From Terramyces sp. JEL0728 (Eukaryota > Chytridiomycota > Chytridiomycetes > Rhizophydiales > Terramycetaceae), in NCBI GenBank assembly GCA_027603945.1, contig JADIIU010000199.1:1-16537 (forward strand): a stretch of 16,537 bases of DNA, given 5' to 3'. A program made the position numbers and the translations under genes. Every line of letters starts with the position of its first letter. The first letter of the stretch is position 1. Positions 1,392 to 10,748 of the stretch are shown piece by piece. The notes under the pieces are model-generated. The model saw nothing but the letters and a program-made list of their open reading frames with translations. It had not been told where the DNA came from and searched no databases.

Positions 1392-2104
1392 TCATTCAGC
1401 AGCAGCAGAAACAGACCCATAATCAGGAGTAACAATGGAAGACAAGAATTCAAGCTCTTTAAATTCTTTATCTTTTCTTTTCGTACTTTTAGGTCGTCCT
1501 CGTCGTTTATGCTCAACATCAACGCAATCGTCCTTTCCTAAATGCTTACATCGCTTACACGGGCGATTGGAATCGCATGCTAGATGTGCCTTCTTGCAAT
1601 GTACGCAGGCTTTGCCGACATGCTTTGGCCGTTTTCTATTTGGCGAGTGTCTATACTTTACGGTTTTCTCTATGACAGGCGACGACTTTATTAGAGCAAT
1701 TATACTATTTCACTTGGTACCGAAGGAAATTCCTGGTTCAAGTAAGATCCTGGCGATACTAATTCCATGGCACCATTTGGAAACCACAGGTTTGTTGAAA
1801 ATCCAGAGTACTCTTCCATTGGATAGTATCTTTGCCATTCCTGCTGCTCATAGTTAGTATAATTTGGAAATGGAGGGTTATAATACAACGAATTCTTTCC
1901 TGGGGTTTCAGGAAACCGTTCTTGTCTCTCTGGATTCAATTCTCTGGCTGTATCTTCCTTTATTGGCGAGTCATTCAGAGTTATTCCCAGTTGGTTGTCC
2001 ATAAATACTGATAATTGTAAGGATGAAGGGGTTACAGGGCTAGTGTAATCTAATTCAGATTCCATGTCCTTTTCGCGAGACGTAGAAGTGAATCTAAAAG
2101 ACAT
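1392..2104 (-). CDS. Zn2Cys6 (Gal4-type) transcription regulator, 230 aa, two exons
   Basis: Exons 2104-1706 and 1685-1392 are separated by a 20-nt intron (1686-1705, GTATAA...CTAATAAAG). Joining them gives 231 whole codons including the stop. Exon 2 holds a fungal binuclear zinc cluster at residues 160-187: C160-x2-C163-x6-C170-x5-C176-x2-C179-x7-C187. A basic RRGRPKS tail, AT-hook-like, follows directly, so this is a sequence-specific DNA-binding protein expected in the nucleus. The zinc cluster sits near the C-terminus, whereas in many family members it is N-terminal. Exon 1 is low-complexity and Pro/Tyr-rich. It contains ELN-x-ER followed by PETPGKN (residues 55-71), a combination also found in the C2H2 regulator at 7155-7784. 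Target genes cannot be inferred. The tight zinc spacing makes the family assignment firm. Confidence 0.85.
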
Positions 2105-2120
2105 TTAGAAATACTGAAAG

Positions 2121-2531
2121 ATGAAATACAATCTACCTTTTCAAGAAATCGAAAGATTTAAAAGCTTTTCAATCTCACGTTCGACTATTACGTGACGTCA
2201 GTTCATATTTTGAGTTGACAGTGTTAGTCGTGCCAAAACTCCAAAGTTGAAATCAAGGCTAAACCCAGAGGAATTTACTCAATTATATCAGGAAATGAAT
2301 ACATGGGATGAAATGTCTTGGAAAACAATTCGATATCAAGAGATTCACGCCATGGAAGGAAACTATATCTTGCAATTTGAATCCAAATCCAGATATCGTT
2401 AATGGAAACCACCACTAACTAAAGACGCAGATCAACTTGATTTTCAACACGAATTTCAAAGGTCTGTATCCAAAATCACATTCCAAAATGTTAACCATAT
2501 ACCCTTTATTCCAAGATTGCACAACTATTAA
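2121..2531 (+). CDS. possible small three-exon gene, 117 aa
   Basis: Proposed exons are 2121-2191, 2222-2397 and 2425-2531, with introns of 30 nt (GTGACG...TTGACAG) and 27 nt (GTTAAT...ACTAACTAAAG). The exons sum to 354 nt, that is 117 codons plus stop, with no internal stop. The middle exon is the best supported: it encodes a charged, ordinary-looking peptide (KSRLNPEEFTQLYQEMNTWD) with no repeats. I do not recognise a family. Doubts: the proposed ATG lies only 16 bp from the divergent ATG of the Zn2Cys6 gene, and both introns are longer than the 19-22 nt seen in conserved genes here. The 5' end may therefore be wrong, or this may be a gene remnant. Its TAA (2529-2531) overlaps the Ran stop (2528-2530) on the other strand. 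Confidence 0.35.
2193..2200. promoter_or_regulatory. perfect CRE/ATF palindrome TGACGTCA
   Basis: A full 8-bp TGACGTCA palindrome, the consensus site for ATF/CREB-type bZIP factors, lies 89 bp upstream of the Zn2Cys6 start codon. That is a plausible promoter position. A given 8-mer is expected about once in four windows of this size, so the match is suggestive only. It also falls inside the proposed first intron of the small plus-strand gene at 2121-2531. Confidence 0.3.
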
Positions 2532-8072: not shown

Positions 8073-9944
8073 TTATCTAAACATGTCATACACTACAGCG
8101 ACTAAGCCAAAAACGATTAGCGAGAATCCAGTCACGAAAAGCAATAGGAAAGGTATGCTTTGCATCCAAAGAGTTTGTTTGTAAACCGAAATCAAATCAT
8201 GTAAATACCCCTCAAAAAGCACACTACCTTGCTTCAAATCGCCCTCAATACCACCAACCTTGCCAATGAGATCCAAACTATCCATCATTGAAGAAGAGTC
8301 ATACCCAAATAGATCTTGAGTAACTCTAGGAATCACTATTTGGATACCATCTTTAAGATCGTTTGCCATTTCCTTGATTACAAAGGTAGTATTTCCCAAC
8401 AAGCAAGAATAGAAATCGCCAATTGCTTGATCTAAAATGGGGATTGGCTTGAGTGTATCTTGAATTGCTGATTCAAAACTAGAAAAGACTGTCGTGACTG
8501 AACTGTCGATTTCAGAAATAGTTGAATCAATAAAGCCAAACAAAATTGTATTCATGTCAGTTTCAATGCCATCAAGGGCACTATTGATTGCATTCACATA
8601 CGGCCCGACAGTTGCATTGACAGCAGCTTGGGCTATATTTTCTATCCCATGAACTGAATTTTCAAGTTCTGTTTTGACTGTTGGAAATATTAGTGAAAAG
8701 ATCCATGGAACCAAAATCGTTTGTAAATGCATGGCTGTAAACCCAAGCAATCCGACTATAATACATATCCATGCTATAGGATGGTTAACATAGTCAATAA
8801 ACCAAACAGCTCTTGTTTTCCAGCTACCAGACAGTCTATCAAAAATTCTGTAATCTAATAAGCAATTCATAAACAAATCTGATTTGACGTAATAATAAAC
8901 TTCTTCTGGGTCAGGGTTTTCAAACAACGATTTGGTTCCAGTCAAATTTCTTTCCAAATACTGCAGCTTTTTCCTTTCCAAATGATGATTGTAGATGTTG
9001 ATGGCAGTGTATGTCACCAAAGTCAGTAGCATTCCAACAAGTAAAATAAAGATTCCTACGACAATACCGACAGTCAAAGCCTCAGTCAACCTATCAATAA
9101 ATGCCATATCCAGCATTTGGTCGCAAAATCGGATACTAGTAATTTGATCTGGTAAAGGCAGAAAATCAAAAGCGTGTGGATCAGATAAATTTGATTTGGA
9201 TATGACTGAACTGATTTTAGTATTGACATTGTTTGTCAAAGTATCAAATGGCGCTGATATCAAATCAGATACTTTTTCATGTATGGAATCGAGTGAAACT
9301 GGTGCGGCACCTAAACTACCTAGTAGATTAGCAGTTGAAGCAGGTAGCGACCAGTGCAAATTATCAGAAACTCCAGGAATGGTAAACGGAATAGGAATAT
9401 TGAATGATGGAGCATGTCCAAACGCCATTGAGTTCAGCCCACTCTTGATTGATGATAATTCTGAATCAAGTGTATTCAAGCTACTCTCTAATGAACTCAA
9501 CATTCCGGTCAACTGTTGATTGACGAAATCTGTAATTTCTTTACTGTTTGCAGATACTTCTTGCAAACTAGCCTGTAAAGATAATGTAACTAGACATTCT
9601 AGGGTTTTTTGGTAGCGGAATAAGATATAGAGCAAGATATTCTTGGCCAATGCCATTGTAAACTGGACTGATTGAGTTGCGTGTTTTTCAGATACTTGAA
9701 TCATCTTTGTTGTTTGTCTGTTGATTGAAATAGCAACGTAGCGAGGAGTAGAAGCCAGCGTATTCGTAGTGGATTCTAACGTAGTACAAGATTGTAGTAT
9801 ATCTTTTTTAGTTTGAGTAGTGTGGTTCTGTAGGCATATGGCTGCCATCACAAGAGACCAGAGTGCGAGTAATAAACCAATACAATACTTGTTGAGATAA
9901 GATCTACTGATTCGTGCATCAATTCCGATATTCTTCTGAAGCAT
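8073..9944 (-). CDS. PRM1: Prm1-type plasma membrane fusion protein, 623 aa
   Basis: A single intron-free frame of 623 codons, normal for fungal Prm1. The N-terminus (DARISRSYLNKY, then a helix at about residues 19-38), the following SCTTLEST and TPRYV region, and the layout of hydrophobic segments (about 95-125, 291-313, 389-409 and 597-619) separated by two long extracellular, coiled-coil-like Ser/Leu-rich regions all match the family. Prm1 is a multispanning protein at cell contact sites. It promotes and stabilises plasma-membrane merger of mating or fusing cells. Conserved Cys residues are present in the first ectodomain (about C53 and C274). Only 19 nt of N-terminal context could be affected by a tiny in-frame intron, and I see none. 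The presence of Prm1 is one of the best signs that the host is a fungus. Confidence 0.88.
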   Translation of the reverse strand: MLQKNIGIDARISRSYLNKYCIGLLLALWSLVMAAICLQNHTTQTKKDILQSCTTLESTTNTLASTPRYVAISINRQTTKMIQVSEKHATQSVQFTMALAKNILLYILFRYQKTLECLVTLSLQASLQEVSANSKEITDFVNQQLTGMLSSLESSLNTLDSELSSIKSGLNSMAFGHAPSFNIPIPFTIPGVSDNLHWSLPASTANLLGSLGAAPVSLDSIHEKVSDLISAPFDTLTNNVNTKISSVISKSNLSDPHAFDFLPLPDQITSIRFCDQMLDMAFIDRLTEALTVGIVVGIFILLVGMLLTLVTYTAINIYNHHLERKKLQYLERNLTGTKSLFENPDPEEVYYYVKSDLFMNCLLDYRIFDRLSGSWKTRAVWFIDYVNHPIAWICIIVGLLGFTAMHLQTILVPWIFSLIFPTVKTELENSVHGIENIAQAAVNATVGPYVNAINSALDGIETDMNTILFGFIDSTISEIDSSVTTVFSSFESAIQDTLKPIPILDQAIGDFYSCLLGNTTFVIKEMANDLKDGIQIVIPRVTQDLFGYDSSSMMDSLDLIGKVGGIEGDLKQGSVLFEGYLHDLISVYKQTLWMQSIPFLLLFVTGFSLIVFGLVAVVYDMFR

Positions 9945-10170
9945 TATCGTTGTTTCAACTGCCAGCCTTTTATCTGCACTTTGCGGTCAAGTTGGTTGGC
10001 AATGAACGTATCAAGCCAATAGTCACTAGCAGGACTACCAACAATGAAATACCGAAGGATACCATCTCGCATTCACCCTGGTTCTTGCAATTCCTTCATC
10101 TCAGCTTCCCACCAGAGATGTTACTGTTGCAGTGAAATAAAGTATCCACTAATGCTACAAATCACTTTAT
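9945..10170. other. intergenic, Prm1 promoter region
   Basis: 226 bp between the Prm1 start and the RING-H2 stop. An open frame exists on the plus strand but has no protein-like features. A TGAAACA heptamer (minus strand, 9951-9957) resembles a yeast pheromone response element, but it is only 7 bp from the start codon. Confidence 0.35.
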
Positions 10171-10748
10171 TCAACCATAAAACGGATCCCACTCTTCTTC
10201 ACTATCCTGCGCTCTAATTTCTGCCCACTTCTTTTCTCTCTTCAGTCTCTCATACTCTACATCATCCGTTTCAAACTCTTGCCTACAAGAAGGACAAGTA
10301 TTATGCTAAATTAAAGAAAAGGTACTAATTGAAGCCAAGGGACTATACATTCAGAGTGGTAGACATGCTTGCATGGCAGTACGTTTGAATCCTTTGTACA
10401 GGCTTCTAAACAAACTGAACAAGATGCTGGCGCAGAGTCTGTAAACGGTGGTAGAGTTTCAATGAATCTCTTTGAAGCTGGCGGAGTACCTTTAACACTG
10501 AATTAAAACTAAATTACTTTGCACTGGCTTCTTGAAACAGCTGGTTGAGTATATCATCCAGTACTTGGTTTGATCCAGCTTGTCTGTCCCTCATTGATTC
10601 GAATACTGATTGAACCATTTCGAAATTGATTTGTTGTTGCTCAGCCATGAATGCGGATACGTCTGGGTTGATTAATTGAGTGCTGCTTCTTGTTTCCTGT
10701 ATTCCATGTTCGACTACTATTAACCCTGGTCTTACGAAAGTAGGACAT
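10171..10748 (-). CDS. RING-H2 E3 ubiquitin ligase (Praja/RNF126-like), 172 aa, four exons
   Basis: Exons 10748-10736, 10716-10518, 10497-10326 and 10305-10171 sum to 173 codons with introns of 19, 20 and 20 nt. The RING-H2 is complete: C97-x2-C100-x12-C113-x-H115-x2-H118-x2-C121-x10-C132-x2-C135. The last intron lies inside it. Trp125 in the conserved E2-contact position, followed by CPSCR, supports an active E3. The region before the RING has VKGTPPASKRFIETLPPF, typical of RNF115/RNF126/Praja-like ligases, which usually carry an unstructured N-terminus. The C-terminal tail is acidic and ends WDPFYG. I chose the start MSYFLVEHG because the 19-nt intron joins it in frame. A longer frame without the intron would begin inside a repeat palindrome. 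The tandem transposon array begins 18 bp upstream of the start codon, so the native promoter may have been displaced. Confidence 0.88.

Follow-up and report, generated by a model that had tools for sequence, protein, structure and literature searches.

Until now, introns of extreme shortness have been associated mainly with odd settings such as relic nuclei, ciliates and stripped parasites. The relevant passages of two papers place the introns of chlorarachniophyte nucleomorphs at 18–21 bp (PMC10245619) and at 18–24 bp with 19 nt most abundant (PMC4035089). On the fungal side, the part of a survey that treats intron length calls the introns of Cryptococcus, with a mean of 63 bp, relatively short, and describes no genome near 20 nt (PMC8476143). 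Here we analyze contig JADIIU010000199.1 (assembly contig C199), a stretch of 16,537 nt referred to as the window, together with a sample of the assembly to which it belongs (15.0 Mb in 231 contigs). A first-pass annotation had proposed that six protein-coding genes in the window are interrupted by fifteen introns of 19–22 nt. We conclude that these are very probably U2-type spliceosomal introns of the ordinary kind, reduced across the sampled nuclear genome to a single narrow length class of 19–22 nt.

Intron lengths across the sampled genome

In order to assess intron length beyond the window, we combined twenty 10-kb stretches drawn from 8 of the 231 contigs with smaller loci and the window itself, giving 250,873 bases, and applied four sample-wide tests that do not use a reference protein: the spacing of splice motifs, a coding-only gene finder, a test of coding phase, and a second gene-finding pass with splice matrices. 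The motif-spacing count covered the entire window (both copies of a transposon-like element included) and loci L001–L030, and the coding-only pass (to 250 nt) and the second pass covered these loci with the window truncated at base 13700, approximately 248 kb. The region of the Ran gene is counted twice in the latter two passes because it lies in both the window and locus L008, which was excluded from the phase tests and from the decoy runs to 600 nt; loci L031–L033 lay outside this set from the start.

Spacings of the pattern GTAA[GT]...TAA[CT]...YAG fell at 19–22 nt 75 times in the 250,873 bases, versus 7 times with a scrambled donor. At 19, 20, 21 and 22 nt the counts were 25, 26, 16 and 8 (scrambled donor 1, 3, 2 and 1), and outside this peak there were at most 2 per length at 12–18 nt and 0–7 per length at 23–140 nt. 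The coding-only finder, which combines coding composition (trained on 78 long open reading frames, 82 kb) with GT..AG ends and a flat length prior, called 42 introns of 19–22 nt, versus 5, 4, 4 and 1 when decoy dinucleotide pairs replaced GT..AG. At 23 nt it called 4 (decoys 0–2), with no clear excess at any other length to 250 nt. When the finder was rerun to 600 nt, introns of 19–22 nt numbered 32, versus 3, 2, 4 and 1 for decoys; the pair GC..AG gave 2, but it can serve as a decoy only in part, since GC introns exist in this genome. No second length mode was seen by the coding-only finder up to 600 nt in about 250 kb, and a genome-wide mode above 40 nt, which the first-pass annotation had named as the contrary outcome, was likewise looked for on sequence in this span and not seen.

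The phase test takes candidates defined by motif only and asks, using 90-base flanks, if the coding frame shifts from one side of the gap to the other in the way that splicing demands. At 19–22 nt, 135 of 155 candidates agreed, versus 12 of 53, 10 of 60, 10 of 29, 8 of 93 and 8 of 60 for decoy motifs. Candidates of 21 nt were then set aside, since a 21-nt gap within a single exon passes trivially, and 98 of 117 agreed (decoys 2/39, 3/48, 2/18, 5/57 and 3/46). Agreement was 58 of 62 among 20-mers and 19 of 41 among the other lengths in the range 16–26 nt. With 60-base flanks, 131 of 165 candidates agreed (decoys 12/62, 11/63, 9/29, 15/91 and 14/68). An initial, stricter version of this test, which used 45-base flanks, was unusable, as it kept too few candidates: 4 consistent and 1 inconsistent at 19–22 nt, with decoys at 1 and 1, 0 and 3, 0 and 0, and 0 and 4.

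In the second pass, which has no length preference, the 131 predicted genes of 100 amino acids or more contained 406 introns. A length of 19–22 nt was predicted for 236 of these (57 of 19 nt, 111 of 20 nt, 50 of 21 nt and 18 of 22 nt), and all twenty 10-kb stretches contained such introns, with 2–19 in each and 202 in total. Lengths of 19–22 nt are the rule for predicted introns across the sampled part of the genome.

Could this rule have arisen artificially, through errors in the assembly, through the gene model, or by chance in the choice of genes? The introns of the window had been picked by eye, and the matrices of the second pass were trained on short introns. Neither eye-picking nor trained matrices are needed, however, for the motif spacing, the phase test or the coding-only decoy passes; moreover, the rule is seen in each of the 20 stretches, and the same introns recur with small differences on a separate contig. 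We regard an artefact as vanishingly improbable.

Window genes and a second copy of the locus

Rebuilding the six window genes recovered all fifteen introns of the first-pass annotation at their predicted positions. With these and one additional intron removed, each gene runs from ATG to stop in a single open frame; the same six ATGs open frames of 28–134 amino acids unspliced versus 172–633 amino acids spliced. The additional, sixteenth intron lies in the channel gene, for which the three introns listed earlier were confirmed and a fourth, at 5487–5507, had been overlooked. The ends are GT-AG in 15 of the 16 introns and GC-AG in one. The genes and their introns are as follows.

2528..3239, minus strand: Ran GTPase gene, 215 amino acids with three introns removed
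3181..3202, minus strand: Ran intron 1, 22 nt, unchanged in the second copy
3009..3029, minus strand: Ran intron 2, 21 nt, unchanged in the second copy
2676..2696, minus strand: Ran intron 3, 21 nt, differing from the second copy by one substitution
3839..4996, plus strand: VMP1-like gene, 358 amino acids spliced, Pfam VTT_dom 29.9 bits, below the 33.9 cut-off
4231..4251, plus strand: VMP1-like intron 1, 21 nt
4386..4405, plus strand: VMP1-like intron 2, 20 nt
4561..4579, plus strand: VMP1-like intron 3, 19 nt
4835..4855, plus strand: VMP1-like intron 4, 21 nt here and 20 nt in the second copy
5112..7095, minus strand: MscS-type mechanosensitive channel gene, 633 amino acids spliced, Pfam MS_channel_2nd 45.3 bits, cut-off 20.2
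6771..6790, minus strand: channel intron 1, 20 nt
6426..6447, minus strand: channel intron 2, 22 nt, GC-AG
5487..5507, minus strand: channel intron 3, the newly found intron, 21 nt here (stop-free and in frame) and 20 nt in the second copy
5393..5411, minus strand: channel intron 4, 19 nt
1392..2104, minus strand: Zn2Cys6 protein gene, 230 amino acids spliced, Pfam Zn_clus PF00172 24.0 bits, cut-off 21
1686..1705, minus strand: Zn2Cys6 intron, 20 nt, AAG end
7155..7784, minus strand: C2H2 zinc-finger gene, 202 amino acids spliced, zf-C2H2 24.2 bits, slightly below the 25.2 cut-off
7681..7701, minus strand: C2H2 intron, 21 nt, within the first finger
10171..10748, minus strand: RING-H2 gene, 172 amino acids spliced, zf-RING_2 44.8 bits, cut-off 27.3 (scored on a 145-amino-acid product without the first exon)
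10717..10735, minus strand: RING intron 1, 19 nt, or 22 nt (10714–10735) through a tandem TAG/TAG acceptor
10498..10517, minus strand: RING intron 2, 20 nt
10306..10325, minus strand: RING intron 3, 20 nt
8073..9944, minus strand: intronless multi-pass membrane protein gene, 623 amino acids, no Pfam family above cut-off

The spliced Ran protein aligns without gaps to a PDB Ran chain over residues 7–212 (409 bits). For Ran intron 1 the second pass predicted 28 nt, which is wrong, as the 22-nt version brings back the conserved GDGGTGKT. Other second-pass predictions in the host genes of the window, a 16-nt "intron" at 309–324 and introns of 32–136 nt, are not believed because they are absent from the hand-checked models, fall at the end of a frame that has no assigned name, or run antisense to a gene. 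The name VMP1 for the gene at 3839..4996 follows the first-pass annotation, and the product of 8073..9944 may be Prm1-like, judging from topology only. The Zn2Cys6 (1392–2104) and C2H2 (7155–7784) proteins have in common a PETPGK motif after an ER.-rich stretch, while their DNA-binding domains differ. The expectation that gene finders with minimum intron lengths of 30–40 nt would break these genes apart is supported; since pipelines with such minima would fragment many genes here, protein sets already derived from genomes of this kind may be incorrect.

Positions 874–10756 of the window have a second copy, at 98.65% identity, on contig C111 (L033), which is either an allele or a recent duplicate. 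Across the six genes and two intronless frames, the copies differ by 8, 6 and 53 substitutions at codon positions 1, 2 and 3 (each per 2,529 sites), with 5 of 325 intron bases and 36 of 1,939 intergenic bases also substituted. Indels number 0 in coding sequence, 2 in introns (1 base each) and 5 in intergenic DNA, and 6 of the 16 window introns vary in sequence. Both intron indels reduce a 21-nt intron to 20 nt in the C111 copy (VMP1-like intron 4 and channel intron 3). Retention of channel intron 3, which in the window copy contains no stop, would therefore shift the frame in C111. In RING intron 1, the second copy has AA in place of the first AG, which leaves the 22-nt version there. The intron segments evolve like non-coding DNA.

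The presence of a second copy at 98.65% means that the assembly may hold both haplotypes in places, and the haploid size may be less than 15 Mb. Elsewhere, on contig C184, two Ras-family matches with equal scores (6033–6576 and 11851–12394) lie 5,818 bases apart and are a recent tandem duplication or an assembly duplicate.

Intron anatomy and the spliceosome

The 19–22-nt class has its mode at 20 nt. We describe intron anatomy from 235 distinct introns; figures for the acceptor side partly reflect the method of discovery, whereas the donor-to-branch distance does not. The donor begins with GTA in the great majority, mostly with A at +4. Position +5 is T in 121, C in 39, A in 38 and G in 37; the G at +5 is thus mostly lost and T is favored, and the top donor hexamer is GTAATT (n = 47). 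The earlier description of the donors as GTAAT or GTAAG stands for GTAAT, the commonest form (67/235), and is not supported for GTAAG, which is minor (AAG at +3 to +5 in 20/235). The commonest branch motifs are TTAAT (63), CTAAT (32), TTAAC (23) and TTGAT (15). A branch adenosine of the TNAY type lies at intron position 14 in 99, 15 in 99 and 16 in 14, hence at 14 or 15 in 198 of 235, in keeping with the very short distance from 5' splice site to branch that had been proposed; it is placed elsewhere in 21, and 2 introns have no motif. From the branch adenosine to the intron end there are 5 nt in 118 introns and 6 nt in 90. Acceptors are TAG in 170, CAG in 57, AAG in 6 and GAG in 2; the AAG end of the Zn2Cys6 intron corrects the first-pass description. 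GC-AG introns of 20–22 nt recur, in the channel gene, in the SF1 gene (L036) and in the Prp18 gene (L039), and therefore GC donors may be commoner than counts restricted to GT would show.

Known fungal introns are U2-type with GT-AG ends. The introns described here have the same ends, or GC-AG, together with a branch motif that could pair with the GUAGUA of U2, and their removal restores the frame. Restoration of frame and tolerance of 1-base indels do not by themselves tell the level at which the segments are removed, and would also fit segments excised from DNA, like the internal eliminated sequences of ciliates, or segments over which the ribosome jumps, as it does at translational bypassing elements. 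But the boundaries are specific to GT..AG, other dinucleotide pairs being without excess, and the branch motif sits at a fixed place; ciliate eliminated segments are bounded by TA repeats. The genome also encodes the U2 branch-recognition sequence and the factors that act at the branch and the 3' splice site. We therefore consider removal from DNA or bypassing highly improbable.

We searched for five splicing proteins (Prp8, SF1, U2AF65, Slu7 and Prp18) and three small nuclear RNAs (snRNAs; U1, U2 and U6). All five proteins were found, and the genes of all five have introns of this short class, so that the genes of the splicing machinery would themselves depend on such introns. For U2, a full-length snRNA was found (140.2 bits), and its GUAGUA is intact. 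Prp8 is highly conserved, with a 22-nt intron within the 3.3 kb examined; a spliced stretch of 1083 amino acids aligns with PDB Prp8 chains over residues 2–1083, scoring 2290 bits with hPrp8, 2138 with spp42 and 1832 with the 5gm6 chain. The human protein thus scores above both yeasts (spp42 being that of fission yeast and the 5gm6 chain that of budding yeast). SF1 has three introns, one of them GC-AG, and becomes a whole protein once introns of 19–21 nt are removed, its SF1-HH matches of 66.2 and 42.9 bits joining into one of 113.5 bits. Removal of introns of 19–21 nt likewise makes whole proteins of Slu7 and Prp18 and joins the family matches of Slu7 (three introns; 139.2 and 104.2 bits into 289.2 bits) and of Prp18 (two introns, one GC-AG; 109.1 and 55.5 bits into 178.5 bits), giving a complete domain in each. 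U2AF65 has four introns of 19–20 nt, and its spliced product matches PDB U2AF65 chains. Losses in SF1 or U2AF, for which the first-pass annotation suggested looking, are not borne out for SF1 and U2AF65. Judging by the components searched for, the spliceosome does not look stripped.

How might such introns be recognized? We infer that the normal major spliceosome would act by intron definition, taking each intron as one short unit with near-fixed spacing of donor, branch and acceptor, and that total length and this spacing may carry much of the recognition information. The 5–6 nt that separate the branch adenosine from the intron end leave no space for a pyrimidine tract on which U2AF65 could sit; the T-rich bases upstream of the branch, on the donor side, may take over this role. 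Given that the G at +5 is largely lost, contacts of U1 and/or U6 at this position are predicted to be weak or altered, and the shift from +5 G to +5 T yields a direct prediction for U1 and U6. Slu7 and Prp18 are least important where the branch lies near the acceptor. A fuller proposal, which we advance tentatively and consider possible but rather doubtful, is that no earlier nuclear genome from the fungal side of the tree has essentially all of its introns at 19–22 nt as this one does, and that here branch-site and second-step factors are kept, reading of the 5' splice site has been re-tuned (+5 G lost, +5 T favored) with U1 and/or U6 changed to match, and length acts as a recognition ruler. 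If that were true, extreme intron shrinkage would not depend on genome erosion or on losing Slu7 and Prp18.

Several points weigh against the conclusion that a uniform class of U2-type introns prevails in this genome. The intron calls are made from DNA sequence alone, and the sample is approximately 250 kb of 15 Mb, its 20 stretches coming from 8 of 231 contigs. Among motif-only candidates, 20 of 155 fail the phase test. In the second pass, 170 of 406 introns fall outside 19–22 nt, thinly scattered over 12–150 nt; we read these as noise because GT..AG counts outside 19–23 nt are not clearly above those of decoys, and a few percent of genuine longer introns may be present. The acceptor matrix of that pass was learned from introns of 19–23 nt, which predetermines the branch-to-acceptor distance in part but leaves the donor-to-branch distance unaffected. 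The models of U2AF65, SF1, Slu7, Prp18 and GAS8 came from a finder that prefers 19–22 nt and are not evidence on length; for this reason, their independent support is the joined family matches and PDB matches. Finally, U6, normally the most conserved snRNA, was not found in the assembly by Rfam model or core patterns, and U1 was not found in the assembly by Rfam model, a kind of miss that does not prove absence. Both misses may reflect assembly gaps, introns in U6, or divergence. Two weak U6 matches, which at 27.4 and 26.9 bits fall short of the gathering score of 44 bits, lie in the region of the VMP1-like gene and its copy, and a one-mismatch match to the U6 core in L034 falls in a coding region that is helicase-like by eye.

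The host and its place among known systems

GC content is 39.5% over the 200 kb sampled, and 83 predicted genes end in TAA (60), TGA (14) or TAG (9). The Zn2Cys6 domain, one weak match, suggests a fungus or near relative. Locus L018 carries at 2754–4322 (minus strand, reverse-complement coordinates) a gene for GAS8/DRC4 (PF13851, 252 bits) with six predicted short introns. GAS8/DRC4 is an axonemal dynein-regulatory protein, and its presence hints at a flagellated line. The host is probably a member of Holomycota with at least one axonemal gene.

Two further features of this genome were seen in passing. At 10820–16537 the window contains a transposon-like element in two tandem copies, with starts 2,859 bases apart and 98% identity over 300 nt, whose predicted protein pieces have no Pfam family and whose gene model includes a plausible 20-nt intron at 12028–12047. 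In L009, from 317 to beyond 4612 (minus strand, reverse-complement coordinates), five adjacent predicted genes encode multi-pass membrane proteins that look similar by eye and are likely a tandem family.

An alternative view of the short introns is that they are a product of genome erosion, in a reduced endosymbiont nucleus resembling a nucleomorph or in an extreme parasite with a stripped spliceosome. Their lengths are near the 18–21 bp of chlorarachniophyte nucleomorphs and the narrow ranges of mikrocytids given in the relevant part of one source (PMC10245619), and the genome is compact at 15 Mb. This size nonetheless far exceeds the nucleomorph of Gymnochlora, put at approximately 385 kbp in the corresponding passage of another (PMC4035089). 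In addition, Prp8 is conserved and slowly evolving, Slu7, Prp18, SF1 and U2AF65 are kept, and GAS8/DRC4, a mechanosensitive channel and transcription factors are present. On the components searched for, erosion of this kind is very unlikely.

In the open-licence literature searched we found no report of such introns in fungi or their relatives, and prior publication is possible. Ultra-short uniform introns are a known phenomenon, and it is possible that the fungus-like case with this machinery is new. The rule of 19–22 nt stands alongside SF1, U2AF65, Slu7 and Prp18, and short introns would therefore be separable from stripped or otherwise odd settings. Such a system would be nearer to well-studied fungal splicing for probing the minimum spacing of donor, branch and acceptor.

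Neolecta irregularis is rejected as the host, since its published assembly has 44% GC and an N50 of 16 kb (PMC5309816), against 39.5% GC and contigs reaching at least 520 kb here. Among possible relatives, the relevant passages on Amoeboaphelidium give approximately 40% GC and 13.6–24.7 Mb (PMC10608142), similar to the 39.5% and 15.0 Mb found here. However, A. protococcarum is described in the section on its genetic code as reading UAR as glutamine (PMC5304391), a poor fit to a genome with TAA as its main stop, and the flagellum of Amoeboaphelidium is reported in one passage to be lost (PMC10057920), whereas GAS8 is present here.

Among systems with comparable introns, the ciliates Paramecium and Nyctotherus have exclusively ultra-short introns, at approximately 25 bp longer than those here, according to part of one account (PMC5014332). 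The same account gives an enrichment of stops in Paramecium introns; a comparable figure here is an in-frame stop in 35 of the 45 21-nt introns whose model has a complete 5' end, as a raw count. The mikrocytids Mikrocytos mackini and P. canceri are described, in the passage that concerns them, as having introns of 16–17 nt, a two-base range, with conserved sequence (PMC10245619). M. mackini is given 224 introns and 17–19 spliceosomal proteins, whereas 202 introns are predicted here in 200 kb alone. The nucleomorphs of the chlorarachniophytes Bigelowiella natans and Lotharella oceanica have, as here, numerous introns in one narrow class, but each is the relic nucleus of a green alga, in contrast to a 15-Mb fungus-like genome with Slu7, Prp18, SF1 and U2AF65. 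The heterotrich Stentor coeruleus likewise combines ultra-short uniform introns with a free-living habit and a large genome, but its introns are 15–16 nt in the part of the source that treats them (PMC10245619). A Stentor gene table, as far as its splicing entries go, has SF1, U2AF2 and U2AF1 present and Slu7 and Prp18 not found (PMC9505925). The genome described here, from an unrelated lineage, has kept both.

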